From Brevundimonas sp. (GTDB lineage: Bacteria; Pseudomonadota; Alphaproteobacteria; Caulobacterales; Caulobacteraceae), in NCBI RefSeq assembly GCF_018608325.1, contig NZ_JABAZW010000142.1:325-41311 (forward strand): a DNA stretch of 40,987 bases. The letters run 5' to 3'. Positions 10,291 through 33,492 of the stretch are shown here, one piece after another. Every line of letters starts with the position of its first letter. Positions within the stretch are counted from its first letter, which is position 1. Under the pieces are notes generated by a model. It was not told the origin of the DNA, did no database searches, and saw nothing but the letters and a program-made list of their open reading frames with translations. The position numbers and the translations under genes are program-made.

Positions 10291-10302
10291 CTCAACGCAC
10301 GG
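10291..10302 (-). promoter_or_regulatory. late-module element copy A (upstream of tailspike)
   Basis: CCGTGCGTTGAG; 30 nt before ATG 10261; upstream stop TAA at 10306-10308. Confidence 0.75.
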
Positions 10303-10305
10303 GGG

Positions 10306-11046
10306 TTAGTGGGTTGTTGGCCTGACCAAGATCACAGGGTGTCCACCGCTGACGGGCCGCTGGGCGTCCTGCAGGATCATCCCGTCACGCTCCATTTCGG
10401 CGAGCAGCGCTTTGACCCTGGAATAGCCGTGTCGCTGGAACCGCTTGATGATGTCGCGCTGGGTCGCGCCCGGAGAAGCGTGGACCTGCTGGAGGATTCG
10501 GCCCTTCAGGTCGTCCTGGCTGGCGCTGCGGCTCGTGGTGAGAGAGCGCATGGAGGGCGTCATCGGCAAGCCGAGCACCTCCCACAGCTCACGAGCCGAC
10601 TGCCGGCAAAAGGTCACTCGCGCCTCGTTCACCATCTGACGGCGCTCCTGAAGAGTCAGGCCGTCGTGCAGTTGGGGGACGTGGGGCAGGGCGACTTCCT
10701 GACCTGAAGGGCCGAAATGGTCAGCGAGAACCTGGAAGCACTCTCGCCGGTATAGGGTGATCTTGTCTCTGATCTCAGGCCGCACCCGCGCGGCGTCGAC
10801 GCCGAACAGCCAGCCGTTGAGCAGGTGGAGGGGGAGGCAGATGGTTTCCTGGACGCCGCCGCTGGAAGGTGTTGCCATCATGGCAACGGCTTCTTTCAGG
10901 ATTGGATCGCGGTCTATGCGCCGGTACTGCGCCGACCAATCCAGACCCAGCGCCTCGACTATGGGACGCATCGCCACGAAGGGTTCGCCCTCGCGCTCAA
11001 AGGCGAACAGGGTGTCGCCGTGAAAGTCTATGGTGGCGAGTTCCAT
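10306..11046 (-). CDS. P22-type antirepressor N-terminal domain protein
   Basis: Internal start MELATIDFHGDTLFAFEREGEPFVAMRPIVEALGLDWSAQYRRIDRDPIL...GVQETICLPLHLLNGWLFGVDAARVRPEIRDKITLYRRECFQVLADHF, P22_AR_N-like; C-terminal winged-helix-like region. Confidence 0.85.
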   Translation of the reverse strand: MELATIDFHGDTLFAFEREGEPFVAMRPIVEALGLDWSAQYRRIDRDPILKEAVAMMATPSSGGVQETICLPLHLLNGWLFGVDAARVRPEIRDKITLYRRECFQVLADHFGPSGQEVALPHVPQLHDGLTLQERRQMVNEARVTFCRQSARELWEVLGLPMTPSMRSLTTSRSASQDDLKGRILQQVHASPGATQRDIIKRFQRHGYSRVKALLAEMERDGMILQDAQRPVSGGHPVILVRPTTH

Positions 11047-11351
11047 CAGTGGCCCCGCAGGAATGCCAGAACCTCGCCCAGCATGGACCGATCCGTTCCA
11101 TCGGCGCGCTCGGCGTTCCCCTCGTCGATCCACGCTAGCACGACCGCCAGCTTTCCTGCGGCGTCGGCATGGGTCTGGATCGGGGCCTTGGCCACCAGAT
11201 CCCATATGGCCTCTTTGGTGGTCCACGCGGGTTCGAAGACGGCGTCATGCTCGGAATCGTGCTCCGACCAACGCATGATCGCATTCGTGGCGAAAAACGC
11301 CCTCGCCAGTTCAGCGGGTGGCGCGGGTATGCTAGAGGCTTCGCAGGCCAT
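11046..11351 (-). CDS. hypothetical protein overlapping antirepressor start
   Basis: MACEASSIPAPPAELARAFFATNAIMRWSEHD...; start preceded by GAGGATCACGTC (SD); overlaps the next gene's start at 11046. Confidence 0.6.
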   Translation of the reverse strand: MACEASSIPAPPAELARAFFATNAIMRWSEHDSEHDAVFEPAWTTKEAIWDLVAKAPIQTHADAAGKLAVVLAWIDEGNAERADGTDRSMLGEVLAFLRGH

Positions 11352-11420
11352 GACGTGATCCTCGGTGATCCGTTTCGGTTTAGGGCCGAGGAAAGGCTGC
11401 AATCCTTGCCTTGGCCCGTA

Positions 11421-11469
11421 CTTTCTGGCATTAGAAAGTCATGTCGTCAAGCGTTTCTAACGTTAGAAA
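11421..11469. promoter_or_regulatory. paired operator-like palindromes in divergent region
   Basis: CTTTCTGGCATTAGAAAG (11421-11438) and perfect palindrome TTTCTAACGTTAGAAA (11454-11469); centres 32 bp apart, flanking/overlapping the RHH gene start. Confidence 0.65.
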
Positions 11470-11653
11470 GAAAACCGGCCGTCCCCCGGTGAACGCGGTG
11501 CCGTTGTCGGTGCGCGTCCCTCCCGACCTCCTGACCGCTGTCGATCAATTCATTGACGAGCGCCGAGCATACGGCGAAGCTCTATCCAGGCCCGAGGCTA
11601 TCCGTCGCTTGGCGACCGAAGCGCTTCAGAAGATGGGGCTCTATAGGCTCTGA
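11441..11653 (+). CDS. ribbon-helix-helix (Arc/Mnt-like) regulator
   Basis: 70 aa: GRPPVNAVPLSVRVPPDLLTAVDQFIDERRAYGEALSRPEAIRRLATEALQKMGL, a typical RHH pattern; divergent from antirepressor operon. Confidence 0.75.
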   Translation: MSSSVSNVRKKTGRPPVNAVPLSVRVPPDLLTAVDQFIDERRAYGEALSRPEAIRRLATEALQKMGLYRL

Positions 11654-12008
11654 CCCTTTTGACGCCGCGATCATCCAAAAAGGCGTTGCAGCTAATGTCC
11701 TGCTTGCACACTCGCGTTCGGAATGCAGTGCGGATCGCAACATCACCGAGAACGATGTCGAGGGCTGCCATCCGTCGTTCGGCAGCATCTGCGCCAACTT
11801 CCTGCGCCAAATCTGACCGGATGCTTTCTCGGACATCGCTACATAGAAGCACCGCGACCCTTCCAGAATCGAGCAGCGGCTCAGCGCCATAACCGATGTA
11901 GTAGGCTGCCTGGTCGGTGCAGGCCTGATATCGAATCATATTGTCGTAGTTTTGAGCCGCCGTCATTTGCAGGGCGACTGCTAAAAGCATCTCAATACCC
12001 ACCATCAC
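11598..12008 (-). CDS. hypothetical protein with N-terminal signal-like sequence
   Basis: MMVGIEMLLAVALQMTAAQNYDNMIRYQACTDQAAYYIGYG...; overlaps end of upstream gene. Confidence 0.5.
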   Translation of the reverse strand: MMVGIEMLLAVALQMTAAQNYDNMIRYQACTDQAAYYIGYGAEPLLDSGRVAVLLCSDVRESIRSDLAQEVGADAAERRMAALDIVLGDVAIRTAFRTRVCKQDISCNAFLDDRGVKRVRAYRAPSSEALRSPSDG

Positions 12009-15000
12009 GCGCCTCGTCCCTTCGCCTGATCTTCTCTGCCGCCATGTCCTGTAGGTCGCTGGCGTACCGCTCGTTTATCATGGCGCTCGCATCACGACGA
12101 TAGGCGGTGATCACGTCCTTGATGTACTCGGCCTTGCCGCCGTCAGGGCCGTCGGTCAGGCTGAAATAATAGTCGCTGTCGGCGTGTTGACCGGACACGA
12201 CCGCGTTCAATTGTTCGAACGCAGGCTCGCCCGCCAGACGTAGCATTTCGCTGTAGATGTCTGGACGGTTCTTTAGACTGACGCTTTCGCCCATGACGCT
12301 GATCGTCCGCCCCGGCATCGACACCGAGACGCCGTTGTTCAGGATTTCGAGATCGATGGCCGAGCCGCCAGCCGCGCGGGTTTGCACCGGCACGATGGCG
12401 TCATAGACGGTTCCCAGGCCAGTCTGATAGGTGCGCGGTTTGCCCCACAGATCGCGCTGCGGAGGCAACTCGTCGCTGAACCCCGGGATGGTGTTGCGGA
12501 TTGCATCGACCACGCCTGCCGTCTCGCGCAGGTAATCGTCGGCTCCACGGCGCGTCATGCGGAGAGCGGAACTGCCGGGGATCATCCCGGAAATGCGCTG
12601 CTTCAGAAGACGTTCGGCATCGTCTGGCGTGCCGTCGAGCATTGCTGACGTGAACTCTGAGGCGCCCTTCAGGATGGTCTTGTCGAAGAAGGCCTGTCCG
12701 ATGGCCTGCACGGCGTGGGCCGCAACTTCGTCCCATTCCTGGCGCCCAGCATCGTCCCAATCGCTGTTCTTCATAAGGTCGGCCATGTCGCCAATCAGGG
12801 CGAGGCCTTGCCCCAGTGGGTCGGCGCGCTCGAAGCTGTACCAGCGATCACCGAATCGGACGGAGTAGGGTTGCCAGACCTGACCGCCATACTCGTCGGA
12901 TCGCATCAGGGCCTCTTTCTGGGCGCGGTTGCCCGGCCCCTGGCCCGTGATCTGTCCGTCCATCGCCATGCCCATCCAAACGGACCACAAGGCCGTGCCG
13001 ACGGCCATCCGCGCCTTGGCGGTTTCAGCAGCGGCACCCCCAGCAGCAAGATCATTACGGAAGCGGCGGCTGAAGGGAGCGAGGGGAGAATAGCGCATCC
13101 CCATGCTGATTAGGTTAGCGGGCGTCTTGATGAAGGGAAGAATGACCGTTCCAAACGGCACCGGCGTGGAGTCTGCGCCTTCACGCAGCGCCATGAAGCC
13201 CTCGGCAATGGTTTCGCGCGGAGATTCCTTCTGCCCCTTGAACTCTCGGGTTGTGATGTCCCGCGTGAACGTCAGGTCGTGCATTTCCTGCTCGGCCGCT
13301 TTCAGCATGTCATCGGTCGGGTTCTCCAGCAGATCAGCCATGCGCTGCGCCGCAGGTCCGCCCTCCAGCCCTTCGTGCATCGTCTGACGGAAAGCCTGGG
13401 CGTGCAGTTCGCCCCGCGCCGCAATCGACTTGAACGCATCATCGGTCAGGTTGTTGATGTTCGACGGCGCGTTGACGATCATGTTCATGATGTCGAGCGT
13501 ACGGCCCAGCACGCTATCTTCTTCGACGCGCCATGCGGCTGCTGACAGGGGGCGGTCTGCGCCGCTGCCCAGCATCCCAGCCTCTTCGCGCTCGGCGCGC
13601 AGCTTCAGGCCATCGGGAATGGAGTCGTCCAGACCCGGCGCCATGCCCCGAAACAGGCCGTCCCGACGCAGAGATTCGCCCGCGTTCGCCCCGATCCGTT
13701 CCGCCGCCTGCATGGGGTTCAGCTTGAACATGTCGCGAAGCGCCATCTGGTAGCCATGCACCAGCGCCGTCGCCTCACCGATCTGCGTTGACGCATTGCC
13801 TCCGAACGCGCGGGCGAGGCGAGGGGACACGGCACGGCTGGCGATGTTCATGCCCAGAATGCCGACGTTGCCGACGGCGTTGATTACGGGCGTGCCAATG
13901 CCGGACAACAGGCTGTTGGTGTAGATGAACTTGGCGACATCGCGCGTCCGCGCGCCCCAGCCGTTCTTGATCATCTGGTTCAGCGCTACGTCGCCCGCCT
14001 CAGCAGCCGCCAACACCCGGCTCGCCAGTTCCTGAGCGCTGTTCGCTCCGCCGATATCCGCCAGCAGGCTATCGACCTGACGCAGATAGGAGGCGGGCTG
14101 TCCGGCCGGAATCTTGAAGGCGTTCAGCGCGCGACCGGCCTCGGCACGGGCACCCAACAGTTCATTCTGGATGGCGCTGTGTGCGGCGGTCGCGCGACGG
14201 AAGGCGTATTGGTTCGCGACCGTCGGGTTTTCCTGCACCGCCCGCGCAAGCTCCAGCACCTTGGACGCGCTGGCGTTGGTTGCCTCGCGGAAGGCCAGTG
14301 CCGTTTCTGCATTGACCGCCTCCCCCGCGCGACGGCTGGCCATCTCCTGAACCCAATCGACCTTGCCGGATGCGGCACGGGTATCTTCCCACGTCCGCGT
14401 CGCACGGCGGGCCAGATCGGCGTCCTTGGCGAAACGATCCGCCATGCCGACGATGACGGCCTGCACGTCCTCGGGCGTGTCCAGGCGCGATAGGTTGATA
14501 TCGAAGACGTTGGCGGACGGCGCGGCCTCGGCCACCTCTGCGGCCATCTCGGCGGGTTGTTTACTGGTCGAGCGCTCGGCTCGCTGTATTTTACGCGTGA
14601 GCAAAGCCGCGTCTGTTTCGGTGCGCTCCCTAAACCTCGGCGCCTCAGGATCGCCCAGCACAGCCTTGATCTGTTGCTGCATGGCCTCGCCTTCAATCTC
14701 GGCGCGCGGCTTGGGTAGATCGGGCGGCACCTGCAGCCCTTCGGCGGCCGCAACCTCACGCGCCATCAACTTGGTCTGGCGCGCGGCGCGCAGCGCACGG
14801 ACGCCGCCGATCAGGGCGTCTGTGGCCAGCCCCAGGCCCGCACCCTCCAGCGCGTTCTTGGCGCGGCCCAGCAGTTCGGGGTCATCCTCCTTGGCGGCGA
14901 GGAAATCAAAGACTGGAGCCACGGCGTCCGGCGCATGCTCCGCCAACAGGTTGGACAGGCGTTCCTCCTGCCCGTCGAACACGGTGAAGTCTGCCAGTGC

Positions 15001-17740: not shown

Positions 17741-17745
17741 TCAGA

Positions 17746-18228
17746 TCACCACTTGAACGCGCTGTTGGGCAGGGCGCGGTTCGGCGCCTTGCTTCCGCCC
17801 AGCCCTGCCGACACGGCGTTCGACACGCCGTCGGCCAGGGTTGTTCCGGCGCCGACATAGCCCATGATGTTTGCGGTCGATCCGGCGCGGCGCTTGGCCT
17901 TCGCGCTCATGCGCAGGGCGCCAGACTGATTGGTGAAACCGACCCGTTCCACATTCTCATCACGGACGGCCTGACGTGCCAGCTCCTTCTCAATGGCGAT
18001 GCCGCTTGGACTATCCAGAGACAGGCCGCGCGCGGCGCGACTGGCCATGAAGGCGGCCATGTTGGCGTTCAGCTCCTCGCGGCGGCGCTCGCTGCTCTGA
18101 AGCGCCTGCAGGTCCACGCCCTTGGCCTGTGCCTCCAGCATGACGCCTTCAGTCTTTAGGGCCTTGGCCTGGGCGCGACCGCTCATGATCTGGGTTGCGG
18201 CCGAGAGGCCTGGCGCTGCATCGCCCAT
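17746..18228 (-). CDS. small internal virion protein, gp14-like position
   Basis: 160 aa, helical, Ala-rich, TANIMGYVGAGTTLADGVSNAV; synteny with T7-like ejection proteins. Confidence 0.6.
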   Translation of the reverse strand: MGDAAPGLSAATQIMSGRAQAKALKTEGVMLEAQAKGVDLQALQSSERRREELNANMAAFMASRAARGLSLDSPSGIAIEKELARQAVRDENVERVGFTNQSGALRMSAKAKRRAGSTANIMGYVGAGTTLADGVSNAVSAGLGGSKAPNRALPNSAFKW

Positions 18229-20327
18229 CAGCTTGTCACTTCCATGGTGATAGTCCGCACCTCCAGCGGGCCGCCGACGTGCTGCTCAATCGTGAAGGTT
18301 GGGTATTTTGCGCGGCCCAGCGGACGGAAACGACGCACGCCCGTCGTAGGCGTCACCTCGCCGCCAATCACGCCTGACCAGCCGGACGGATCGCGCCCGT
18401 TGCCCTTGAAGCCGACGGATTCTATGACATCGACATCGACACGCGTGATCTTGTAATTGGGTCGCAGCCCCATCTGCTGATCGATAGGTGGCACACCCTC
18501 GACAATCAGGGGGAAGTCCAGGCCCACACGCACGGCGCCGAAGCTGTCATCTACGCCGATCAGGCGTCCGTCAGGTCCGACCTCAAACTCGCCCAGCTTG
18601 GACGGGCCAGACCAGACGCCGATGGTGTGGCCGGCATAGAGCGGAACAGGCGTGTTGAGGTCGGGCAGAGCCACCATGCCGTCAGCCCACGCCGTCTCGT
18701 CGAAACGCTCCAGGCGGAACTTGCGAACACCGTCGACGACGCGCTCGGCCACAACGAACAACTGCCCGTCCGCGACGACCAGCGATCTCCAAGATCCCGC
18801 CGTGTGCCACAGGCTCCAGGCTGAGAACTGCGCGCTGCGGCGATAGGTCAGCACGGCCATCTGTCCGTCATCGCGCAATACCGGAACCAGACGGTCACTC
18901 TCTGTGCCCGCCGCCAGCAGCTCAAGCTCAATCGGCGTTCCCATCAGGTGGAAGGCCAATTCCGACAGGTCGGCAATCTCCCACGAGCGACGCACGTTGC
19001 CGGTCGGCAGGCAGATCATGGTGCGGCCGCTGTCGCGCTCGATGAACATCATGCCCTCGCTGACCAGCAGCGGTTGCGGCGAGGCGGCGGACTCGGGGCC
19101 GATCTTCAGCAGTTCGAAGTTGGTGGGTGACAGGGGGGCAGCGACCTGCTCCGGCACGTAATAGACCCCCGCTTCGGTGAAGAGTAGAAGCTGCTCAGTC
19201 GATCCGAAGTGACGCAGTCCAAGGCTCGTTTCTCGACCCACGCGCTCGATGATGGCGTCAGTCTCAAGGCCGGTGCCGGTGCTGAAGTCCTCGATGTCTC
19301 CGGTCGCGCTGGCGGCCATGACATTTTGCGCGGCGTCGAAATCACCCAGCATCAGACGATTGCGGTGCAGCGCGGTCGATCCGGGATAGCCACGCGCGCC
19401 ACCGATCAGAGCCTCATCCCAATCCACGGTTGGCGCTGGCGTGGCGAAGTTGGTTACCGCGCTCATCTTGGAGCGGGCCGTGGGTCCAACCAACGCCTCA
19501 GTCGCGTCGAACAGGGTGAACCCGTCGATCATCTGGATCTGAAGTGTGGTGGCGCTTGGCACAGCCGACACAACGCCGTTGATCTGCGTATCCTCGCCCT
19601 TGACCTGCTGCCCGATAATGAAGCCGTCAGACGACGCCAGGGTCACGGTTACGGTTGGGTAGAGGGCACCGATGACGTTGCCGGTCGCCGCTGTCGGGCT
19701 GCTGACGCCCGCGATCTGGATCTCCACGCCCGTGTACCGAATGCGCGTTCCGACATGGCTCGGCAGGAAGAAGTCTGCACTTGTCGCCAGATTGATCGCG
19801 CCACTGTAGCCCGACGGCGACAGGCTGATCCCGCGCGCGGCGTAGCGCCAATAGGGTTGGAGCCGCGAACCATTCAGCCCATCAGCGAAGGCCAGCGGCG
19901 CAATAGCCCAGGTCGAGCCGGTCAGGGTCAGTATCTGCGGTTGGAACGACCGCGCCGCAACGACGACCTTTCCGTCCTCGATGGCGATCTGCATCGTGAA
20001 CAGGTCAGCCTCACGCCATGGCACAGCAGTAGCAATTACCTGCTGCACGGCGCCATCCAGACCGCGCACTTCGAACCGACCATCGCCAAACACCAGCAGA
20101 CGCGCATCGCTGCGTCCGATGCCGTAGGTTTCCAAACGCGATACGCCGTTCAGACCGGCGACATCGGCGGTCCCCCAGCGGCGCTTGAAGCCGCCTCCAG
20201 CCATGTTCAGGGCATTGCGAAACCGGCGCGCACCCTCATTGCGAACCTGCAGGTCGGTGCGCAGCAGGTATTCCTCGGCAAGCTCACCGGCCGCCATGCT
20301 GGTGATGAATGGAAAACGGCGCGCCAT
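18228..20327 (-). CDS. tail tubular protein B / nozzle-like protein
   Basis: MARRFPFITSMAAGELAEEYLLRTDLQVRNEGARRFRNALNMAGGGFKRRWGTADVA..., typical stabilisation/nozzle-protein N-terminus; large beta-rich ORF. Confidence 0.8.
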   Translation of the reverse strand: MARRFPFITSMAAGELAEEYLLRTDLQVRNEGARRFRNALNMAGGGFKRRWGTADVAGLNGVSRLETYGIGRSDARLLVFGDGRFEVRGLDGAVQQVIATAVPWREADLFTMQIAIEDGKVVVAARSFQPQILTLTGSTWAIAPLAFADGLNGSRLQPYWRYAARGISLSPSGYSGAINLATSADFFLPSHVGTRIRYTGVEIQIAGVSSPTAATGNVIGALYPTVTVTLASSDGFIIGQQVKGEDTQINGVVSAVPSATTLQIQMIDGFTLFDATEALVGPTARSKMSAVTNFATPAPTVDWDEALIGGARGYPGSTALHRNRLMLGDFDAAQNVMAASATGDIEDFSTGTGLETDAIIERVGRETSLGLRHFGSTEQLLLFTEAGVYYVPEQVAAPLSPTNFELLKIGPESAASPQPLLVSEGMMFIERDSGRTMICLPTGNVRRSWEIADLSELAFHLMGTPIELELLAAGTESDRLVPVLRDDGQMAVLTYRRSAQFSAWSLWHTAGSWRSLVVADGQLFVVAERVVDGVRKFRLERFDETAWADGMVALPDLNTPVPLYAGHTIGVWSGPSKLGEFEVGPDGRLIGVDDSFGAVRVGLDFPLIVEGVPPIDQQMGLRPNYKITRVDVDVIESVGFKGNGRDPSGWSGVIGGEVTPTTGVRRFRPLGRAKYPTFTIEQHVGGPLEVRTITMEVTS

Positions 20328-20938
20328 CAGCAACGTCCACGACGACGCCGCCACGCTTCTGCCAGCGGAGCCGAGGTCAGAACATCGACGCCCGGCTCCT
20401 GCCGCTTGTCGCGCAGAATGGCGTCACGCATCTTCTGGTCGGCGTCTCGTTCCTTCAGCCGTGCGTCTTGTGGCTTGTCACACAACGCCTCAAGGAACAG
20501 GGCCTGCAGACGCGTGACGATGGCCTCGGACAGGTCGCCCGGCCAGACAGACTCATGCGCGCGCACGTTGGCGACGACCTGTAACGTGGCGCCCTCGTAG
20601 CGATCCCGCGTCAGGATGCGACCGCTCTCGATGGCATAGTCACCAGATCGCAGGCGCTGCCCCCGATACATCAGATACTGGATATTGATGACCTCGGACG
20701 GCGCGACCCAGGCGTGGCGATACGGACCCAATTCGACTGCTGACTGATAGGTTACCGGCAGGGTCTGCTTGGCGAAGGTCCAGGCATGACGCGTGAAGGC
20801 GGCGCGGACGATGCCCTCATAGTTGCTGTTCGCCACACGCGCGGCGCTGTCGTCGCCGTCCAGCGACGGCAACTCCTCCTCACCGATGCGGTGCAGTGCG
20901 GCCTGAATGACCTCGATAGGTGCGGCATAGGCGGGCAT
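20327..20938 (-). CDS. tail tubular protein A / head-tail adaptor-like protein
   Basis: MPAYAAPIEVIQAALHRIGEEELPSLDGDDSAARVANSNYEGIVRAAFTRHAWTFAKQTLPVTYQ, a gp11-like adaptor signature. Confidence 0.8.
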   Translation of the reverse strand: MPAYAAPIEVIQAALHRIGEEELPSLDGDDSAARVANSNYEGIVRAAFTRHAWTFAKQTLPVTYQSAVELGPYRHAWVAPSEVINIQYLMYRGQRLRSGDYAIESGRILTRDRYEGATLQVVANVRAHESVWPGDLSEAIVTRLQALFLEALCDKPQDARLKERDADQKMRDAILRDKRQEPGVDVLTSAPLAEAWRRRRGRC

Positions 20939-20967
20939 TGCGCCAGATTGAGCGGCGCAGGGAAGTC

Positions 20968-20979
20968 CTCAACGCACGG
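20968..20979 (-). promoter_or_regulatory. late-module element copy B (upstream of tail adaptor)
   Basis: CCGTGCGTTGAG; 30 nt before ATG 20938. Confidence 0.75.
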
Positions 20980-21075
20980 GCCTTGGCGTAAGTGCGAGGC
21001 GGGGGTATGGAGCGTGCAGGTCGGTGGCGCAGACCGGATTACCTACGCATGGCCGCGCTTAAGCCTGACTATCAT

Positions 21076-21452: not shown

Positions 21453-21476
21453 AGTTCCAGGAGGGTAGGGTAGGGA

Positions 21477-22252: not shown

Positions 22253-22265
22253 GGTGATGCGCTCC

Positions 22266-23279
22266 TTAGGCCACAGCGGCTTCGGTGTTCAGCAGGGCGT
22301 CGGTTTCGCGGATCGGGATGCCGCGATAGGTCATCACCTCCTGACCGGCGATTTCCATCGGGGTCAGGCGGACGAAGTTGTCCGATGCGCCCTTGTTCTG
22401 CGCCAGGGCCTCCAGGGCCTCAAGCACATCGCGGTTGCAGTAGATGGCCTGACGCGGCGCGGCCTCGCCGTCCGGCAGATTGGCGCCGGGGCGCGCAACG
22501 CGGCGGGACTGCAGCTTGTAGTAGGCTGAGCGCAGGAACTTGTAGAGGTCGACATTGCCCGCCTGCATAGCGGCGACATCGATGTTGGCGACGCGGGAGT
22601 TATAGCGCCAGTCACCGACCGACAGGCCCAGGTGCCAGCGAAAGGTTTCCTCCAGCACATAGTAGGGGTTGCCCGCCGCGTCCGTGACGCGTTGGCGGCC
22701 GTTGTCTTTGCGCTGCAGGCCGCCCGGCGCATCGGCAGGATGGATCAGCGACGTGAAGCGGTCACCCCAGGTCACAGCCCAGATCGAGGTGTTGTTCGAT
22801 CCGGTCCCGCCAGCATTGACGACGTTCTTGTTCGCCAGCGAGTTATAGCGCGCTCCCAGACCCTTGAACTTCTCAGGCGTGGTGGCGGTGTCGTGGTAGA
22901 AGATGCCGGTCGCGGCCTCCTGCGACATGGCCTCCAGCACGCCAGAGGCTTCGTTCAGGCGAAGCTGATTAACCTTGGCCGCCTCGATGTCGAGCATGCG
23001 CTCGTCAACGGCAGACATCTGCTCGATCCAGCCGGTTGTATCCTCGACCGACTGGGTGTGGCCCTTGGACTGCGGCACGCCCTGGTAAAGCGCGCCCCAC
23101 GAAACCGAGGGCAGGCCGGTGCGGATCGAATGGCGGTGCTTGTTGCCGTTGTTGCAGGGAATGACCCAGGCGTCATCTAGAACCGGGTTGGTCTGCGACA
23201 GCACTTCCAGCACCGCGCCCTCTGGCGTGGTCCGCAGCGTGTCGATCAGATTCAGATAGGAGTTGCCGATGGTGGCCAT
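22266..23279 (-). CDS. major capsid protein
   Basis: 337 aa, MATIGNSYLNLIDTLRTTPEGAVLEVLSQTNPVLDDAWVIPCNNGNKHRHSIRTGLPSVSWGALYQGVPQSK; between scaffold and cement protein; SD GAGGA. Confidence 0.85.
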   Translation of the reverse strand: MATIGNSYLNLIDTLRTTPEGAVLEVLSQTNPVLDDAWVIPCNNGNKHRHSIRTGLPSVSWGALYQGVPQSKGHTQSVEDTTGWIEQMSAVDERMLDIEAAKVNQLRLNEASGVLEAMSQEAATGIFYHDTATTPEKFKGLGARYNSLANKNVVNAGGTGSNNTSIWAVTWGDRFTSLIHPADAPGGLQRKDNGRQRVTDAAGNPYYVLEETFRWHLGLSVGDWRYNSRVANIDVAAMQAGNVDLYKFLRSAYYKLQSRRVARPGANLPDGEAAPRQAIYCNRDVLEALEALAQNKGASDNFVRLTPMEIAGQEVMTYRGIPIRETDALLNTEAAVA

Positions 23280-23292
23280 GTGTCAGTGATCC

Positions 23293-23967
23293 TCAGCCGT
23301 AGAGACGGGTCGCTAGATCCGGCAAGGCCGGGGCGGGTTGGGGGGCGGCCGAAAGCGCTGGGCCGGACAGTTTTGAGACGAGCTGTTCCAGGGCGATCAC
23401 GCCCTCTGCGTCGCCCATGTTTCGGCGCAGAGCGTCAGCGCCCGGTGCGCCGATGGCGGCTGTGACAGCGGAGTGAATGGCGGCGGTGCGGGCCGCATGG
23501 GACGAACCTAGCTTGGCCTGCTCAGCCGCGATGAAATCGTTCTGCGCCTGGGCGGCGGCGATCTCTTGGGCGGCATAGACGCCCAGAATTTCGGACACGG
23601 CCTCCTGCGGCATGCCCAGCTTGTGCATCACCGGCAGCATGGCGGCCGCCAACGGATCGGCGGCGTCGAACTCGACAGGCTTCCCGTCCAGACCGACGAT
23701 GGGCTCGGCTAGGGTCAGGGTGTATTTGTCGGGACTCTCGGGAACGCCTGCACGACGTGCGGCGTCCGCAGCTTCCAGCTCAGCGAGGCGCGAATAGGCT
23801 TCCGGCTTGATGCCCGTCGCCTCATCCCAGAACGCATCAGGCAGAGCGTCGGGGCGGGCCGGGGCCGCAGGCTCAGGAGCGGCCATCACAGCGGCTGGTG
23901 CGACCGGAACTGCGGTCGTCGGCGCTGGCGCCGGGGTGGGTTCTACAGGGGCGGTTGCGTCCGTCAT
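23293..23967 (-). CDS. scaffolding protein
   Basis: MTDATAPVEPTPAPAPTTAVPVAPAAV..., Pro/Ala-rich N-term, helical C-term; upstream of capsid gene. Confidence 0.72.
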   Translation of the reverse strand: MTDATAPVEPTPAPAPTTAVPVAPAAVMAAPEPAAPARPDALPDAFWDEATGIKPEAYSRLAELEAADAARRAGVPESPDKYTLTLAEPIVGLDGKPVEFDAADPLAAAMLPVMHKLGMPQEAVSEILGVYAAQEIAAAQAQNDFIAAEQAKLGSSHAARTAAIHSAVTAAIGAPGADALRRNMGDAEGVIALEQLVSKLSGPALSAAPQPAPALPDLATRLYG

Positions 23968-23998
23968 GGTCGCGACGTTGCGGCGCGCGACCCATGCC

Positions 23999-24010
23999 CT
24001 CAACGCACGG
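23999..24010 (-). promoter_or_regulatory. late-module element copy C (upstream of scaffold)
   Basis: CCGTGCGTTGAG; 32 nt before ATG 23967; directly abuts upstream stop TGA 24011-24013. Confidence 0.75.
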
Positions 24011-24268
24011 TCATTCTGGCGCTATGGACCTCAGAACACCGTTCATGAAGCGTCGTGCGCCCTCGGCCTCCCGCAGCGTTTCGTTGCTGGAATTCAGAGG
24101 GGTGACGGCGTTGGCGCGCTCCAGAAGCCAGCCCATCACCCTCAGGCCATCATGTCCGCTGAACAGGCGACGCGCTGTTTGCTCGATCTTTTCGTCAACA
24201 TCGCCAGCGATGGATTTCGACGGTTGAGCGCGTAACGATGCAAAGGTTCGCTTAGGCTGTTGCACCAT
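24011..24268 (-). CDS. hypothetical protein
   Basis: 85 aa MVQQPKRTFASLRAQPSKSIAGDVDEKIEQTARRLFSGHDGLRVMGWLLERAN...; SD GGAGGG. Confidence 0.55.
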   Translation of the reverse strand: MVQQPKRTFASLRAQPSKSIAGDVDEKIEQTARRLFSGHDGLRVMGWLLERANAVTPLNSSNETLREAEGARRFMNGVLRSIAPE

Positions 24269-25793
24269 CTGGCATCCCTCCCTGTGCCGCAGCCGCCATG
24301 GCAGCTTCCTGCGCGATCTGCTCTGGCGACTTCATGACGATGTGCCGCTCCTTCGCCGTGGCGATCAGGTTTTCCATTGTCGCGGTTGCGTCGATCTGGA
24401 CACCGACCTGCAGCGCGGCGCCGATGTTGGATGCCATAGCCAGGACCTGCCCCGTCAGGTTCATGTCCTCCAGATCCTTCGCCTTGGACAACGGACTGAT
24501 CGGACGCACGTTCACGACCTGACCGCCCTTCAGCTTGACCTCCGGCAGGACGCCGCGCTGCGCCAGAATCCAGGCCACGCGCTCGATGATCGGCAACACC
24601 CATTCACGGACGCAGCGGTCACGGGGCAGTTCCTTGCGCCGCGTGTTCCAGGCCTTCTCGTCCATCCACTGGCCCAGCGTCGGCGGTGTATCGCCGGGCT
24701 GCTCGGGACGATCCTGATAGGCGGCGCGCTTGATCTCCTTGCGCATCTCGTCCTCTTTGAAGAACGAGGCGTCGAAGCGCGCTTCCGGCATGAAGGGCTC
24801 GGGCGGTTTCGATCCCGGCGCGCGGGCGTAGGCCTTGCCCGCCTCTATGCCGCCTTCGAAGTTGGCCAGTCCGTCCTCTTCATAGGAGAACGGCGCGTCA
24901 ATGCTGTTGCCCAGACCCTTGAGATTCAAATAGCCAAGCTCGTCCAGAACCCGCGCGCGCGGCGTTGCTTTCTTGAACGGACCCGGCCCCCATGCGCTGT
25001 CGGCCTGTTGACGAAACCTGCAGGCGATGACCGCGCATGATCCGGCGCCCTCGAACACCTTGTGAAACCGCTGCTTGTTGCCGACCATGATGCGATAGTT
25101 CCAGCGCTCGACGCCGGGCGTGCTGTAGTCGCGGTCGCAGCCCTCGACGACGGCCTGCTTGCGGTTCGCCTGGTTGCTGGTCGGCATAGGGAACTCAGAC
25201 GGAAGCGCCACTCCCCAGAGCATGTGCTGCTCGGCAGGCGTCAGAGACATCTCCCGCCATTTGCCGGTCACGCTGCCATCGGGCCCCCGCTCCATCAATA
25301 GGTCGGGTATCTCGATGGGCTGGAAGTGCAGGGGATTAAGCGCTCCCATGTCGCTGACTGCCAGCGCCATGGCTGATACGCCCCAGAATGCGAAGCATTC
25401 CTGGGCTGCGTCCCAATAGTTCGACCGCTCAATCTCAGCGAATATCGTGTCGCCAATCGCCTTGAGTTGCGGCGCGATCTCGCGGCGCTGCCCCTCGCTC
25501 AGGCTCTCGGCAGGTTCAAACATCACCCAGCGCTCATGACGGGGGGTGAAGGTCGAGATCATGTCAGAGGCGAAATCCTCAGCTACGATCTCCAGCGTAT
25601 TGTCGAACTGATCGTCCTGCTCCTCGATCTTCTGCGCGGCGTTCGATGAGTTGGTGCTTCGGGATTGAGCGTCCGCAATCCGCCGATAGGTCGGAAGGGC
25701 CAGGCGCAGCGTCTCGTCAATCCACACCTGATGGCGGGCGCGGTCCTGCCGGGCCAGTGTAACGCGCGCCAGAACCTTCTTGGCGTCATCCAT
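24252..25793 (-). CDS. portal protein (T7-like head-tail connector)
   Basis: 513 aa, MDDAKKVLARVTLARQDRARHQVWIDETLRLALPTYR...EDFASDMISTFTPRHERWVMFEP; C-terminal Q/A-rich. Confidence 0.85.
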   Translation of the reverse strand: MDDAKKVLARVTLARQDRARHQVWIDETLRLALPTYRRIADAQSRSTNSSNAAQKIEEQDDQFDNTLEIVAEDFASDMISTFTPRHERWVMFEPAESLSEGQRREIAPQLKAIGDTIFAEIERSNYWDAAQECFAFWGVSAMALAVSDMGALNPLHFQPIEIPDLLMERGPDGSVTGKWREMSLTPAEQHMLWGVALPSEFPMPTSNQANRKQAVVEGCDRDYSTPGVERWNYRIMVGNKQRFHKVFEGAGSCAVIACRFRQQADSAWGPGPFKKATPRARVLDELGYLNLKGLGNSIDAPFSYEEDGLANFEGGIEAGKAYARAPGSKPPEPFMPEARFDASFFKEDEMRKEIKRAAYQDRPEQPGDTPPTLGQWMDEKAWNTRRKELPRDRCVREWVLPIIERVAWILAQRGVLPEVKLKGGQVVNVRPISPLSKAKDLEDMNLTGQVLAMASNIGAALQVGVQIDATATMENLIATAKERHIVMKSPEQIAQEAAMAAAAQGGMPDGATA

Positions 25794-26095
25794 CAGTAGA
25801 GGACCAAGTCTGGACGGGTAAGTCCACCGCCGCCGCCACGTCCACCCCCAAACTGCGCGCCGCCAGATCCTCCACCTCCAGAAGAGCCGGTGGACTGTGA
25901 TGGGGTTGAGCCACCACCAAAGATCGGGACCGATCCGCCCGAAGATACCTTCCCGAAACGACGGATGCGGCGGGTCGTGGCGCCCGTCAGATAGGCCTGC
26001 GTTTCTTCGGTGCGTGCGACTTCAGCGCGCCGCTGCTCACGCTCGCGCGCCTCGACAACGGCGGGATCTTCTTGCTGCGGTTTAGGGCTTCTCAT
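25793..26095 (-). CDS. hypothetical Gly-rich small protein
   Basis: MRSPKPQQEDPAVVEAREREQRRAEVARTEETQAYLTGATTRRIRRFGKVSSGGSVPIFGGGSTPSQSTGSSGGGG...; TGATG junction with portal. ORF could extend to GTG at 26143. Confidence 0.6.
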   Translation of the reverse strand: MRSPKPQQEDPAVVEAREREQRRAEVARTEETQAYLTGATTRRIRRFGKVSSGGSVPIFGGGSTPSQSTGSSGGGGSGGAQFGGGRGGGGGLTRPDLVLY

Positions 26096-26507
26096 TCGGC
26101 TGGCTCTCAAACGCAGGACGCGCACCTTGAGCGAGCAAGTCACGGCATAGGGCTTGAGGCCTCAACGCACGGGTTCTGACGCCTACGAGGTGCGCCACAG
26201 CGGGCGTGCACCAGAAGCCGAAACGGAAGGCGGGGCGGCTGGCGTCTCGCACCTTGAAAGCCAGCAGGGTGCGGCTGGCAGGCAGGGCATCAACCCAGGC
26301 GTCCATCTGCGCCGAAGACAGGGCGCGAAGGTGGGTCTGCTTCAGCGTTACATCATACAGCAGCCAGACGGACTGCTCCGCGTCGTACGCAAAGGCGACG
26401 ACATGCCGAAAGCCTGGACGACACAGGCGCCACCACCAATGCGGCTGCTCGCCGTCATAGAAGGCGACATACCATTCGCCAATCGGAGCGATCTCGCGAT
26501 CAATCAT
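26082..26507 (-). CDS. hypothetical phage protein
   Basis: MIDREIAPIGEWYVAFYDGEQPHWWWRLCRPGFRHVVAFAYD...FWCTPAVAHLVGVRTRALRPQALCRDLLAQGA; ATGA coupling to terminase. Confidence 0.65.
   Translation of the reverse strand: MIDREIAPIGEWYVAFYDGEQPHWWWRLCRPGFRHVVAFAYDAEQSVWLLYDVTLKQTHLRALSSAQMDAWVDALPASRTLLAFKVRDASRPAFRFGFWCTPAVAHLVGVRTRALRPQALCRDLLAQGARPAFESQPNEKP
26161..26172 (-). promoter_or_regulatory. late-module element copy D (inside CDS 26082-26507)
   Basis: CCGTGCGTTGAG; inside coding sequence (encodes TRALR context), 66 nt before ATG 26095. Confidence 0.6.
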
Positions 26508-28126
26508 GACCGCGACCGAAACACGGACTTACGGCCACGGTCGAACACGCGGGCATGCACCTTGGTCTGGACGGCGGCCGTGTTCCGTCCCGCACCGAAC
26601 AGCAGGTTGCCGCCCTCGCCCATGCCCAGCACCATGTAGCCGAGGGCCTCGCAGGGGTGGCTGTAGGCGTTCTTGACGATATCGCCGGAGACGAACTGAC
26701 CTGCAGAGGTGTTGGTGACCTTGAACTGATAGCCGCCACCGAGGCCCTGTTCCAGCATCCGGCAGTTGGGGTCGATCAGGAATGCCTGATACCCATCAAC
26801 CTGACGGGTCAGGATGTTGTCGATCACCTCTTTCCGACCACCCTTGCCGGCAAATCGGTTGGCGCCGGGCGCGCGGCGCACAGGCATTCCGTGCTGTCGG
26901 AAGATGTCGAAGGCCGTCTTCTCCTCGGCCTGTCCTCGAATGTCGCCGCCAGGGTCACCAAAGAACTTAACGCGGGCCGGGTCGACATCAGGAAAACGAC
27001 GCAGCAACTCGGCCTTGACGAAGGGGGCGAAAGTCACGGCTCCCACGTCCTCGGCGTACAGTTCCGCCAGCGCGAAGATGCGGCCCCGCACCGTCTGGCC
27101 GAAGACGGCGGCAGGCGTCAGGCCGAAGTCAAGACCGACGTACAGGTCCAGGTCCGGCTGATATTTCAGAGACGAGGACGCGACGTGGCTGTTACGCTCC
27201 GTCGATGCGCGGAACAGTGGGTGCACGGCCTTGCCGCGCATGATCGAGGCGGCGATGTTGCGGCAGTTCGCGTCGATCCACTGGCGCGTCACGCCGTGAA
27301 TCTTCTTCGGATAATAGTCAGGCCTCAGCCAGCGCAGGTTCTCGGCGTTCGGATTGACACAATACTCAACCTCGTCGCCCGGATTTAATGGTTCAAGGCC
27401 GTGCGCCCGCAGATCGTCATCCAGCACCAGCAGCGCGGGGGGCTGAACGAACAGGTTCCAGCCGGGCGGCCTCTTGTGCTTCTGTACATCGTCAGGCGTG
27501 AAGTGGTCGGGGACGGGGGCCTTGCCGAACATGATCGGCGCCCAATGCAGGCTCTCCGGCGCGTTCATGTCCGCGATGCCGCCAGACCAGTTGCAGCCGC
27601 CGTTCTTGACCGACGGATAACGTCCGCAGCGCGAAAGCCCCTCTGAAACCAGCAGTAGGCTGATGTACTGAAGCTCGTTGAAATAGATGCCAGTAAGCTG
27701 CAGCGAGCGCAGCTTCTTCACATCGTCTTCCTTGTCCAGCGCCAGGAAGATGAACTCGGCTTCGATGTCGCCATAGCTCATGTGGTAGGTGAACGGCGGC
27801 GACCAGCTCATTTCTCCGAACCCGCCGTCCGCCTCCTTCCCCTCGGGGAACAGGTTGCAGAATGACGGAATCGTGGTCGTCTTCAGCTCAGGGAAGGTCG
27901 AGCGGACAATGGCCCACCGGCTTCGACGGCGACGATCACGCTGTGGCGGCTGGGCGCTACAGTGCATGAACAGCCGCATGATCGCGGCGTCCGTCTTGCC
28001 CGAGCCAATCGGCCCCTGGATGATGTCGAAATCACCCGATGAGTGCATGAACGCCGTGAGAATTTTCCCATCGGGTTCAAAGACTATCGGCTCTTTCGGA
28101 GGTGCTGGCGGGGCTTTACGGGCCAT
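26504..28126 (-). CDS. terminase large subunit
   Basis: Walker A-like IQGPIGSGKTDAAIMRLF; nuclease-domain motifs YVGLDFGLTPAAVFG and FFGDPGGDIRG. Confidence 0.92.
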   Translation of the reverse strand: MARKAPPAPPKEPIVFEPDGKILTAFMHSSGDFDIIQGPIGSGKTDAAIMRLFMHCSAQPPQRDRRRRSRWAIVRSTFPELKTTTIPSFCNLFPEGKEADGGFGEMSWSPPFTYHMSYGDIEAEFIFLALDKEDDVKKLRSLQLTGIYFNELQYISLLLVSEGLSRCGRYPSVKNGGCNWSGGIADMNAPESLHWAPIMFGKAPVPDHFTPDDVQKHKRPPGWNLFVQPPALLVLDDDLRAHGLEPLNPGDEVEYCVNPNAENLRWLRPDYYPKKIHGVTRQWIDANCRNIAASIMRGKAVHPLFRASTERNSHVASSSLKYQPDLDLYVGLDFGLTPAAVFGQTVRGRIFALAELYAEDVGAVTFAPFVKAELLRRFPDVDPARVKFFGDPGGDIRGQAEEKTAFDIFRQHGMPVRRAPGANRFAGKGGRKEVIDNILTRQVDGYQAFLIDPNCRMLEQGLGGGYQFKVTNTSAGQFVSGDIVKNAYSHPCEALGYMVLGMGEGGNLLFGAGRNTAAVQTKVHARVFDRGRKSVFRSRS

Positions 28127-28156
28127 GCGCCAAAGAGAGGCGAGGCCCGGTTACGC

Positions 28157-28168
28157 CTCAACGCACGG
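28157..28168 (-). promoter_or_regulatory. late-module element copy E (upstream of TerL)
   Basis: CCGTGCGTTGAG; 31 nt before ATG 28126. Confidence 0.75.
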
Positions 28169-28203
28169 GGGGCTCAGATGATGTGAGGGTGTGGGGGTGG
28201 CTA

Positions 28204-29652: not shown

Positions 29653-29654
29653 GA

Positions 29655-29945
29655 TCAGTTCTCCAGTACGAGCAGGTCGTCGTTCAGCCCGATGGGCTGG
29701 CCGTCGAGCATGAGGATGCCGTCGATGATCTCCACCACACCCGTCGCAGGGGCGAGCCTGAAATCCGGTCGCTCATTCGCCCCTACAGCCACCACGCGGA
29801 AATCAGGCAGGCGTACGCCGATGACTTCGGCATAGGTGAAATCCGGGCGCGGGGATGCGTCCGGATCCACCAGCAGCACGCGGTAGTCCGGGCGCGGAGA
29901 TGCGTTCTCAGCAACAAACGTGATGTTGAAATCAGGGAGCGCCAT
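29655..29945 (-). CDS. small PDF-repeat protein
   Basis: MALPDFNITFVAENASPRPDYRVLLVDPDASPRPDFTYAEVIGVRLPDFRVVAVGANERPDFRLAP..., five tandem PD[FY] units. Confidence 0.65.
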   Translation of the reverse strand: MALPDFNITFVAENASPRPDYRVLLVDPDASPRPDFTYAEVIGVRLPDFRVVAVGANERPDFRLAPATGVVEIIDGILMLDGQPIGLNDDLLVLEN

Positions 29946-29977
29946 TTGAGGCGAGTAGGCGGATAGCGGCTGATGAC

Positions 29978-29989
29978 CTCAACGCACGG
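29978..29989 (-). promoter_or_regulatory. late-module element copy F (upstream of PDF-repeat gene)
   Basis: CCGTGCGTTGAG; 33 nt before ATG 29945; 1 nt from upstream stop TAA 29991-29993. Confidence 0.75.
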
Positions 29990-29990
29990 G

Positions 29991-30422: not shown

Positions 30423-31609
30423 ACCAGCATCTCCGGCGTCACCGTAACGCTGCCGACCTGCCCCCATCGCGCATGATAGGTGTAGGCGGTCGCCTGCCGC
30501 TCGCTCATCCACCCGCCGCGCGCCGCGTAGGCATCTCTGGCCGCCAGGGTCGAATGCTGGACCACCTTCATGCCGGAATGCTCCTTCACCTCTTCATGGT
30601 GCCGGTGGCCGCAATGGGCGTACCTCTTGGTCGTCGCGCCCCACTCGCGCGGGTATTGCGCCGCGAACAACAGGGGCAGGGCTTCGTTCTTTTTCAGATG
30701 TCCGTGGTGGAAGGCCAACATGACCTCACCATGCAGGTGGACATAGTAGGGCAACTCCGAGTCGATCACCTTCACGCGGGGCTCGCTCTCGTACAGGGCG
30801 GCGAACATGAGGCGCAGCCAAACCGATGAGGCCAGATCGTGATTGCCCTCCGCCATGACGACGAACACCGTCTGGTGCTTGGCCAACGCCATGTCGATCA
30901 CCCGGCGCAGGATGCGGATCGCCGCGCCGACCATCTTGGAGAACCGACCGTCCTGATCCAACACGTGGCCCGAGGTCGGCGTTACCGGTAGAAGGCCATC
31001 ACTATGCAGCCAGTCGCCCAACTGGTTGACGACGCAGGTCGTCGCGGCGGGAGAGGACAGGACCATCTGCTCAAAGCAGCCGGTCAGGGTCTGCTCTGCG
31101 ATGTTGAGATCCCAATCTGCGCCGCCCTCCTTGCGCCAGGCCAGCATCCCAACATGACTGTCGGTCAGGGTGTAGAGATTGCACAGGTGGTCCGCTGTGG
31201 CGCCGGGGGCGGGCAGGGGTGGCGCGCGCGGAACATCGTCCGTCATCGCCGCGATGGCCTCACGGATCAGCTCAAGGCGCCGGTCGTCGTCCAGTTTGGT
31301 CTTGACCCATTGCAGCTTCACCTCGCCATCCGCGCCGTACAGGGTCGAATGCCCCTTGGCGACCATGGGCGAGGGGATGGCGTGGTTCAGGTCGTAGTCG
31401 GGCGCATAACCCTGCACCGTGGCCAGCGCCTTTACGCGCGCGACCGTCTGCTGAAACCCGCCACGGCGTTGTCCAAGCTTCCGTGCGGCCGCTGAGACGT
31501 TTCCGTCCGTGTCGATCAGCGCCTGAATGACGGCTCGCTGGCTGTCGCTCTCGCAATAGTGCAGCAGTTCGGCGCGGGGCGTCGCGTCCGGCTTGAACGA
31601 CAAGCTCAT
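30419..31609 (-). CDS. calcineurin-like metallophosphoesterase with N-terminal HTH-like region
   Basis: TLTDSHVGM...NQLGDWLHSDG...VMAEGNHDLA...AFHHGHLKKN...AHCGHRHHEE phosphoesterase motifs; N-term TDGNVSAAARKLGQRRGGFQQTVARVK HTH-like. Confidence 0.82.
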   Translation of the reverse strand: MSLSFKPDATPRAELLHYCESDSQRAVIQALIDTDGNVSAAARKLGQRRGGFQQTVARVKALATVQGYAPDYDLNHAIPSPMVAKGHSTLYGADGEVKLQWVKTKLDDDRRLELIREAIAAMTDDVPRAPPLPAPGATADHLCNLYTLTDSHVGMLAWRKEGGADWDLNIAEQTLTGCFEQMVLSSPAATTCVVNQLGDWLHSDGLLPVTPTSGHVLDQDGRFSKMVGAAIRILRRVIDMALAKHQTVFVVMAEGNHDLASSVWLRLMFAALYESEPRVKVIDSELPYYVHLHGEVMLAFHHGHLKKNEALPLLFAAQYPREWGATTKRYAHCGHRHHEEVKEHSGMKVVQHSTLAARDAYAARGGWMSERQATAYTYHARWGQVGSVTVTPEMLV

Positions 31610-31824
31610 GTAGGCCACCCGCAAAGGGCTACGCCCGTCGCATTGTGGGATTTCACCTCCCGTATCGTCTGGTCAGTGTCGCGCGATGACCATGAGATTG
31701 GCTTGGCGATCCGGCAGTAGGTGTCTGCGCCGCGCTCAGGCTCAGTCGCGACGGAACCCGTCCGACTGGCGCAGGCGCTCAGGATCAGAATCACGGACGG
31801 CAGCGTCAACGCGTGCAACATCCG
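31606..31824 (-). CDS. o-spanin (Rz1-like lipoprotein), overlapping i-spanin gene
   Basis: MLHALTLPSVILILSAC lipobox; C-term YCRIAKPISWSSRDTDQTIREVKSHNATGVALC, typical Rz1/o-spanin pattern. Confidence 0.75.
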   Translation of the reverse strand, partial: RMLHALTLPSVILILSACASRTGSVATEPERGADTYCRIAKPISWSSRDTDQTIREVKSHNATGVALCGWPT

Positions 31825-32083
31825 CCCGTCGAACCGCATGGTCCGCATCGGCTCGTTCCTTTTCGATGATGGTGGTCGAGCCGTCTGAGCGGCCCTTTCT
31901 GTAGATGAACAGCAAGGCGATTGCCGCGATGCCGGAAAGCAGGCCCTTGGTTCCGAAGGTGCGGAACAGCACGACCAACAGGGTGATGACCGCGATGGCG
32001 CCGATGATGAACTTGGCGTGGTCGAGGAGCGCGGTCACGAGAGCGGATCCGCCGAAACGCCTTGGCCACAGGTTACAGGCCAT
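31742..32083 (-). CDS. i-spanin/Rz-like or holin-like membrane protein
   Basis: MACNLWPRRFGGSALVTALLDHAKFIIGAIAVITLLVVLFRTFGTKGLLSGIAAIALLFIYRKGRSDG... then charged coiled-coil; overlaps o-spanin; SD GGAGG. Confidence 0.65.
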   Translation of the reverse strand: MACNLWPRRFGGSALVTALLDHAKFIIGAIAVITLLVVLFRTFGTKGLLSGIAAIALLFIYRKGRSDGSTTIIEKERADADHAVRRADVARVDAAVRDSDPERLRQSDGFRRD

Positions 32084-32247
32084 GGGCCTCCAGGATAGTA
32101 AGGCCTCTGGAAATCGTAGCGCGGCATGGGAGGTGGCTGGGTCAGATAGTTGGGTCCAGCCTGAAGCGCCACGTTTTCGCGACGGACAGAAAAGACGCGT
32201 TCTAGCTCTTCGCGAAAAATGCGGCGGACGTCTTCTTCGGTCATCAA
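32035..32247 (-). CDS. small hypothetical protein in lysis cassette
   Basis: 70 aa MMTEEDVRRIFREELERVFSVRRENVALQAGPNYLTQPPPMPRYDFQRPYYPGG. Confidence 0.5.
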   Translation of the reverse strand: MMTEEDVRRIFREELERVFSVRRENVALQAGPNYLTQPPPMPRYDFQRPYYPGGPWPVTCGQGVSADPLS

Positions 32248-33146
32248 ACCCCACCTCCCACCTTCAGCTGCCGCCGTCCGGTCAGAACCAGGCCAGCAGC
32301 CAGCAGCACGACGACAAAGGCGGCGAGCGCCCAGGGGTTGGTGACACCTTCCAGCACAGGCTTGAGGACAGCAGCCGCGCCGCCGATTCCACCCAGTCCA
32401 GCCAGCACGCCGCCGATGGCCGTCTTGTCCGTCTTCAGGTCCGCACCGTCAGGCTTGGCGGCCTCAACGATGGCGGACGGAACGGGCAGCTTGGTCACCT
32501 CAGCAGCGGCGCGACCGTTTCCAGAAAGCACAACCTTCGCCGCCTCCTTCCGCGCCGCGATCAGCGAGTCGAGGAAGTTGCGGTAATAGCCAGCGATCAG
32601 CGAGGCCTTGTCCGTGCCGTTGACGATACGGCGGGCGCCCTCGGGGTCTTCGGTCGTGGCATTGAAATAGCGGTCCAGATCGTGGCCCGGAGCGAACAGG
32701 CCCTGACGCATCCCAACAACGATAGACCGGGCGCTGATCTCAGGGTCCAGCAACAGTCCGGGGTTGGCGATCAGGTCCAGTCCAAGGGCCGTGCTCATTC
32801 GGTGATAGTTTTGTTTATGGGTGACCTGCACGTCGCCGCGCCCGAACCATCCGTCGCGCCAGTAGGGCTTCGAAACCTTCAGCGCGCCAGAGGCATAGGC
32901 CGCGTCGAGACGGCGGATGGCCTGCGCGCCGCTCGTGGCGAATGTCTCGCGCACCGGCTGCATCCTGCCGCCCGTTTCGCGGAAGTCCGTCGCCAGCAGG
33001 TAGGCCAACTGTCGGTCGTCATCGACGCCGTGTTCGTCCCAGGCTGCAATCAGGCGTTCGACGCCTTGAACCTGATCCTTCGTCAGCCTGCCGCCGAACG
33101 GCGCGTTACGGAGGAAGGCGAATAGGGTTGCGTGGTCGCGGGTCAC
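32244..33146 (-). CDS. endolysin, GH19/lysozyme-like, with C-terminal transmembrane region
   Basis: LTKDQVQGVERLIAAWDE...QLAYLLATDFRETGGRMQPVRET...YWRDGWFGRGDVQVTHKQNYHRMSTALGLDL; C-term hydrophobic GGVLAGLGGIGGAAAVL...WALAAFVVVLLAAGLVL. Confidence 0.82.
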   Translation of the reverse strand: MTRDHATLFAFLRNAPFGGRLTKDQVQGVERLIAAWDEHGVDDDRQLAYLLATDFRETGGRMQPVRETFATSGAQAIRRLDAAYASGALKVSKPYWRDGWFGRGDVQVTHKQNYHRMSTALGLDLIANPGLLLDPEISARSIVVGMRQGLFAPGHDLDRYFNATTEDPEGARRIVNGTDKASLIAGYYRNFLDSLIAARKEAAKVVLSGNGRAAAEVTKLPVPSAIVEAAKPDGADLKTDKTAIGGVLAGLGGIGGAAAVLKPVLEGVTNPWALAAFVVVLLAAGLVLTGRRQLKVGGGV

Positions 33147-33382
33147 TCCGGCGCCCTCCGGCGTTGGCTAGGGCGTAGCGCGCTCGCCAACTCTTGAATG
33201 GATGCAGTCAGGAACTTCACCTGCTCCTGCAGGCGGATCACCTCGTCGCGCGTGGCGTCGTGGCCCGCCTCCTTGGCCTTCAGCGCATTCACACGGCCCT
33301 CCAGCCTGACAAGCCATGTCACAGCGGCGATCCCTGCCAGGGCGAGCGTGATGAAGTGCTGGGGTTCGAGGTTCACGAACAC
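33143..33382 (-). CDS. small membrane protein (holin- or i-spanin-like)
   Basis: GTG start; (M)FVNLEPQHFITLALAGIAAVTWLVRLEGRVNALKAKEAGHDATRDEVIRLQEQVKFL: one TM plus coiled coil. Confidence 0.6.
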   Translation of the reverse strand: MFVNLEPQHFITLALAGIAAVTWLVRLEGRVNALKAKEAGHDATRDEVIRLQEQVKFLTASIQELASALRPSQRRRAPE

Positions 33383-33450
33383 ACCCAGCGCGTATCGATC
33401 TCTCGACCTACAATTGTCTCAGTCGCCAGGGTCTGGTTCGCGCGTGTCAT
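33373..33450 (-). CDS. 25-aa small ORF overlapping downstream gene start
   Basis: MTRANQTLATETIVGREIDTRWVCS*, starting 31 nt downstream of a CCGTGCGTTGAG element and overlapping the 33382 GTG start. Confidence 0.45.
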   Translation of the reverse strand: MTRANQTLATETIVGREIDTRWVCS

Positions 33451-33480
33451 CCGCGCATAGCGCCCGCCAGCACCGTCACG

Positions 33481-33492
33481 CTCAACGCACGG
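33481..33492 (-). promoter_or_regulatory. late-module element copy G (upstream of lysis cassette)
   Basis: CCGTGCGTTGAG; 31 nt before ATG 33450; 2 nt from upstream stop TGA 33495-33497. Confidence 0.75.

Follow-up and report, generated by a model that had tools for sequence, protein, structure and literature searches.

A repeated 12-mer as the candidate upstream half of dispersed, mostly leaderless late promoters in a family of alphaproteobacterial phages

What does a short sequence do when it opens, in the same orientation, one block of phage late genes after another? The question is raised by a Brevundimonas prophage with leftward transcription in the window (the whole 40,987-nucleotide stretch analysed here). 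An initial annotation had reported seven identical copies of a 12-mer, always in the direction of late transcription, and an exact search recovered them all: CCGTGCGTTGAG occurs on the minus strand at 10291, 20968, 23999, 26161, 28157, 29978 and 33481, against an expectation of 0 copies in dinucleotide shuffles. No exact copy had been noticed in the host flank or the replication module, and indeed no further one was found in the whole 3,511,324-base assembly. With up to two mismatches allowed, the rest of the window remained near background; the sole one-mismatch match (40654, plus strand) lies within a helicase gene, on the strand opposite to late transcription. No CCGTGCGTTGAG clusters were detected in 389 other genomes of the same family, each of which has 0-4 scattered copies, about the level of a reversed-pattern control and of chance. 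A text search of the literature for the element returned no phage paper among the matches listed.

The element in the window

The copies and the main genes of the blocks that they precede are as follows, gene identities resting on PHROGs matches where stated.

33481-33492, minus strand: candidate late promoter element 1 (CCGTGCGTTGAG), lysis block; ATG at 33450, 31 nt downstream; T at -7; no Shine-Dalgarno (SD) sequence
33373-33450, minus strand: ORF of 25 aa that begins at the inferred start site of element 1, ahead of the lysis genes
32244-33146, leftward: endolysin (PHROGs match)
29978-29989, minus strand: candidate element 2 (exact match), with a 96-aa gene and a 482-aa repeat/fibre-like (decoration-like) gene; ATG at 29945, 33 nt downstream
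28157-28168, minus strand: candidate element 3 (exact match), upstream of TerL; ATG at 28126, 31 nt downstream
26504-28126, leftward: TerL (PHROGs match)
26161-26172, minus strand: candidate element 4, in the 3' end of CDS 26082-26507; block of the portal-preceding gene
24252-25793, leftward: portal-like connector (PHROGs match)
23999-24010, minus strand: candidate element 5, scaffold/protease and capsid block; ATG at 23967, 32 nt downstream
22266-23279, leftward: major head protein (PHROGs match)
20968-20979, minus strand: candidate element 6, tail tubular genes and internal virion proteins; ATG at 20938, 30 nt downstream
20327-20938, leftward: tail tubular-type protein (PHROGs match)
18228-20354, leftward: tail tubular-type protein (PHROGs match)
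10291-10302, minus strand: candidate element 7, 539-aa spike gene; ATG at 10261, 30 nt downstream

The PHROGs-supported gene order, in which internal virion proteins were also identified, bears out the proposal that each copy opens a functional block, with the refinement that copy 4 lies within the 3' end of a coding sequence. The reading frame of that coding sequence (26082-26507) is kept in relatives, which indicates that this stretch serves two purposes; the gene downstream of element 4 probably starts at ATG 26095, 66 nt away. In six of the seven copies an ATG follows at 30-33 nt. Elements 6 and 7 are each followed by a -10-like CAATCT (20945-20950 and 10268-10273, respectively), and a longer ORF from TTG 24003 begins within element 5. 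An M-x-T-R-A-like ORF start after the element, comparable to that of the 33373-33450 ORF, is also seen in several relatives.

Beyond the right edge of the window come the early genes and a repressor-like protein; just past that edge (L009, at about 1300), the helicase gene is broken by a run of N in the assembly. The late region also holds a P22_AR_N-type antirepressor gene (10306-11226) just before the candidate spike promoter, which was not found in the relatives compared.

Conservation, spacing and a second word

Relatives were collected via TerL. In the late direction, the element or a variant of it with one base changed is present in all those of sufficient length with a TerL identity of at least about 60%, and it is absent from those at 43% or below. 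Across 404 kb, comprising ten related phages and the window, the late strand has 72 copies of the core GTGCGTTGA and the opposite strand a single one, about 1.5 per strand being expected. Adding three more records gave 84 sites, or 52 non-redundant ones, from 14 phages including that of the window, with GTGCGTTGA at the same late-gene positions; as all of these sites come from related phages, the counts are not fully independent. The flanks have diverged, which indicates that the word was kept by selection rather than by recent copying, in line with the initial view of short selected signals and not duplicated DNA. The word is neither as frequent in the host as in the phage nor missing from homologous late modules.

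The distance to the start codon is also conserved, a regularity absent from the initial annotation. In 33 of the 52 non-redundant sites an ATG lies 28-32 nt past the last base of the 12-mer (other 5-nt bins hold about three), and nearly all of these ATGs open the downstream gene. Aligned on the ATG, 22 of 28 sites have T at -7 and 15 of 28 have A at -11, the spacer being otherwise featureless; TTGA falls at about -34, with 16-19 bp to the -10 element, a weak one in many of the copies. If transcription begins at the A of the ATG, -7 T and -11 A correspond to the best conserved positions of a bacterial -10. This signature, together with TTGA at about -34, suggests a promoter that starts at or next to the ATG and has the element as its upstream half, and the fixed distance implies leaderless mRNAs. 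An SD-like tetramer precedes the ATG in only 2 of 28 leaderless-type sites, versus 10 of 14 other sites in which one is found at +31 to +44 with a start codon after it (Fisher p 4e-5). From these regularities we infer promoter activity and start sites, that is, distributed late promoters that would start on the ATG or 1-3 nt from it, giving mostly leaderless mRNAs; for blocks with a later gene start, the simplest reading is the same start point followed by a short leader with an SD. Leaderless mRNAs are common in the host group: in Caulobacter crescentus, 375 have been mapped and are translated as well as others (PMC4117421).

Several late operons share a phage-specific sequence in the orientation of transcription which, by sequence, stands at or upstream of a -35 with a properly spaced -10. 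The comparison of related late modules in this way supports the phage-specific late promoter regulon that had been proposed. Strong hairpins with T runs, resembling terminators, lie directly upstream of the tail-gene copy in five viruses of both lineages described here (G390, G395, G400, G146 and G795), which suggests that the tail block needs its own start; the window's tail-gene copy has no such upstream hairpin.

A second lineage, likewise absent from the initial annotation, has the same layout with a changed word. This lineage B consists of four more distant phages (the G146 prophage and records G795-G797) with GTGCATTC in place of the word of lineage A, so that the layout is found in about 18 related viruses (14 phages including this one, and the four). 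The G146 prophage comes from a different species of the genus; its TerL is 35% identical and it is without GTGCGTTGA. Its own word, CGGTGCATTC, came from a k-mer list and from the regions upstream of TerL and the tail genes. The G146 prophage region has eight copies with C/G-GGTGCATTC and none on the opposite strand, five of them with an ATG 29-31 nt on, and positions and spacing in lineage B are as in lineage A. In G795, G796 and G797, GTGCATT occurs 15 times on the late strand and 0 times on the opposite strand; T at -7 is present in six of nine ATG-spaced lineage-B sites. The two words have GTGC-N-TT in common, the -35-like TTGAG having become TTC or TTG in lineage B. The same layout with a different word indicates that the layout is older than the word, and a word that changes while the layout stays behaves like the site of a lineage-specific factor, not like a housekeeping -35.

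Reading of the element and its alternatives

We consider it probable, with good confidence, that the 12-mer is the upstream half of dispersed, mostly leaderless late promoters used by host RNA polymerase together with a phage-encoded DNA-binding activator. The conserved bases would span about -41 to -30, taking in the -35 region (TTGAG), and would be followed 16-19 bp on by a weak -10 in which A at -11 and T at -7 are the main bases kept. Transcription would start at, or 1-3 nt from, the ATG of the first gene in most blocks to give leaderless mRNA, and in the remaining blocks at the same point, followed by a short leader with a Shine-Dalgarno sequence. The element would be bound by a factor produced towards the end of the early phase, for which the XRE-type protein described below is the likeliest candidate; this factor would recruit RNA polymerase, and all particle and lysis blocks would thereby be switched on together.

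Activator-dependent, dispersed phage late promoters are familiar from Mu C and P2 Ogr. As in those systems, of which that of the Mu C late activator is described in PMC4461284, several late operons each have what appears to be their own host-polymerase promoter with a shared phage-specific upstream signal; unlike in them, the word is different, the element overlaps the -35, the inferred starts are mostly leaderless and the candidate activator is of another type. Closer to the host group, the Caulobacter gene transfer agent is controlled by the GafYZ proteins, which assist RpoD polymerase where the -35 is poor (PMC11150451). Alphaproteobacterial particle genes, dedicated activators and a poor -35 are shared features, whereas the GafYZ system has a single main promoter, a far-upstream site, IHF and anti-termination, and no sequence link to it was found here. 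By analogy, it shows that a dedicated-activator mechanism exists in this host group, by different proteins.

Host RNA polymerase might read the promoters alone, the extra conserved bases tuning strength only, and TTGAG at -34 with A-11 and T-7 does resemble a housekeeping promoter. We consider this improbable, given that GTGCG is as strictly kept as TTGA across phages with 44-80% protein identity, that lineage B retains the layout without the -35 likeness and that the word is absent from the host chromosome. A quite different role, shutting off late transcription in the lysogen, would fall to the elements if they were stoperator-like sites of the prophage repressor. The mycobacteriophage cluster A stoperators (PMC9283540) are likewise short (12-13 bp), asymmetric, repeated, one-way and phage-specific. 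Stoperators also occupy early promoters, however, and here there is no copy in the early control region by the repressor gene, where operators would be expected, and none in the early genes; the fixed ATG spacing and coupling to a -10 are not expected of stoperators either, and the elements here would activate transcription and not stop it. This makes such a role very unlikely.

We hold in equally low regard direct reading by a phage RNA polymerase or phage sigma factor, which the strict conservation of the word and the poor -10 might suggest. The initial annotation had left the choice between a phage polymerase promoter and an activator site fused to the -35; the second is favoured by the conserved orientation and position and the weak -10. 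The first is disfavoured by the scans against PHROGs and Pfam, in which the phage ORFs examined gave neither an RNA polymerase nor a sigma factor, and by the position of the conserved block, which ends about 30 bp before the inferred start, whereas a T7-like promoter block spans it and goes with an encoded single-subunit polymerase. There was also no sigma-70 region 4 match on the contig; a whole-genome profile search for a single-subunit RNA polymerase carries no weight here, as its control gave no match. Finally, the fixed distance to the start codon could mark a translation signal at the RNA level, as in the repeated, one-way start-associated sequences of mycobacteriophage cluster K (PMC3203893), which are ribosome-binding sites that include the SD and stand 3-7 bp away from the start codons of mostly non-structural genes; this is hardly credible here, where the element has no SD, stands about 30 nt from the ATG of late genes and would not be transcribed with a gene whose start site is at its ATG, where leadered genes keep the distance from element to start site and not that to the ATG, and where one copy lies within a coding sequence.

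A candidate activator

If a phage-encoded activator binds the element, as the preferred reading has it, three window genes are candidates.

34767-35213, minus strand: XRE/HTH_31-like protein, 148 aa (Pfam HTH_31 8e-5, below the curated cut-off), shortly before the first candidate late promoter
34240-34767, minus strand: HTH protein, weakly like small terminase subunits (phrog_2538, E 0.006); second candidate regulator
39261-39638, minus strand: small protein with a weak OmpR-type winged-helix match (PF00486, E 0.0032, below cut-off); third candidate regulator
35667-38096, leftward: primase (PHROGs match), for orientation

The XRE gene stands at the end of the early genes, and its protein is conserved in every relative whose sequence extends over the region, the distant G402-G404 among them. 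In a profile comparison with the G146 prophage, homologues were found, among the window genes compared, only for late genes and the XRE protein, which is the sole early or regulatory gene of those compared to be detected in both lineages; the 34240-34767 and 39261-39638 proteins co-occur within lineage A and were not detected in G146. XRE homologues are also present in G795 and G796, with modest homology between the lineages (about 35%). Along with the motif, one residue of the recognition helix differs: every lineage-A protein has DRY there, against DGY in each of the three found in lineage B. Searches of 50,697 deposited phage records and of 384 further genomes of the class found no homologue, and a wider search that used the lineage-B protein added no new lineage. 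The protein was modelled poorly (mean pLDDT 65), and no match in the fold comparison was significant; those obtained were weak and of XRE type.

In Pleomorphomonas phages a small XRE-like gene also lies ahead of the terminase gene pair, and a k-mer search found no comparable repeated element in phages of this type, so XRE gene and element are not strictly tied. We regard the XRE-type protein as the best candidate for the late activator, with belief and doubt evenly balanced; this identity, like the need for an activator, we infer from the comparisons. One such prophage has a window-like order, with the small XRE-like gene (L028:8687-8983) followed directly by an HTH gene in the position of the small terminase subunit (8980-9567) and then TerL; CTTCCAGCCCC repeats also occur in that lineage, at L058:8328-8412. 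A 60.8-kb contig (record G398; L097, L120), whose second XRE match is partial and lies right at the contig end, could reflect a duplicated or chimeric assembly.

The interval from the primase to the XRE gene (35400-35560) contains several CCCACTCG copies, in both orientations, next to a G run and an A+T-rich stretch. Different repeats (GAGTGTCAC, CCTCACTCGA and GGCGTCACT) occupy this place in relatives, again with an A+T-rich stretch, and for that reason we rejected the CCCACTCG repeats (35400-35550) as operators of the XRE gene; an iteron-type origin fits better, and the interval looks like a replication origin with lineage-specific iterons. A conserved TGCGTTGGCGCGC lies about 40-50 nt upstream of the XRE start in seven loci of relatives (L060, L062, L065, L068, L069, L074 and L075). 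It shares TGCGTTG with the late element, is altered to TGTTGGCGCAC in the window, and is a possible autoregulatory site.

Taken together, these comparisons lead us to propose, tentatively and with doubt slightly the weightier, a family of alphaproteobacterial podovirus-like phages that would run their whole late programme from dispersed, mostly leaderless promoters, in which a small XRE-type activator replaces -35 recognition and activator and site change together (DRY with GTGCGTTGA, DGY with GTGCATT). If this is right, gene starts would be corrected, as gene callers may overlook the short leaderless ORF ahead of the lysis genes or set a start within the element (24003). The two matched pairs of site and candidate activator would bear on how a small phage activator replaces -35 recognition, dozens of near-uniform natural leaderless promoters would be available for in vivo work on leaderless translation, and a late-gene switch open to direct testing would be in hand for an uncharacterised alphaproteobacterial phage group.
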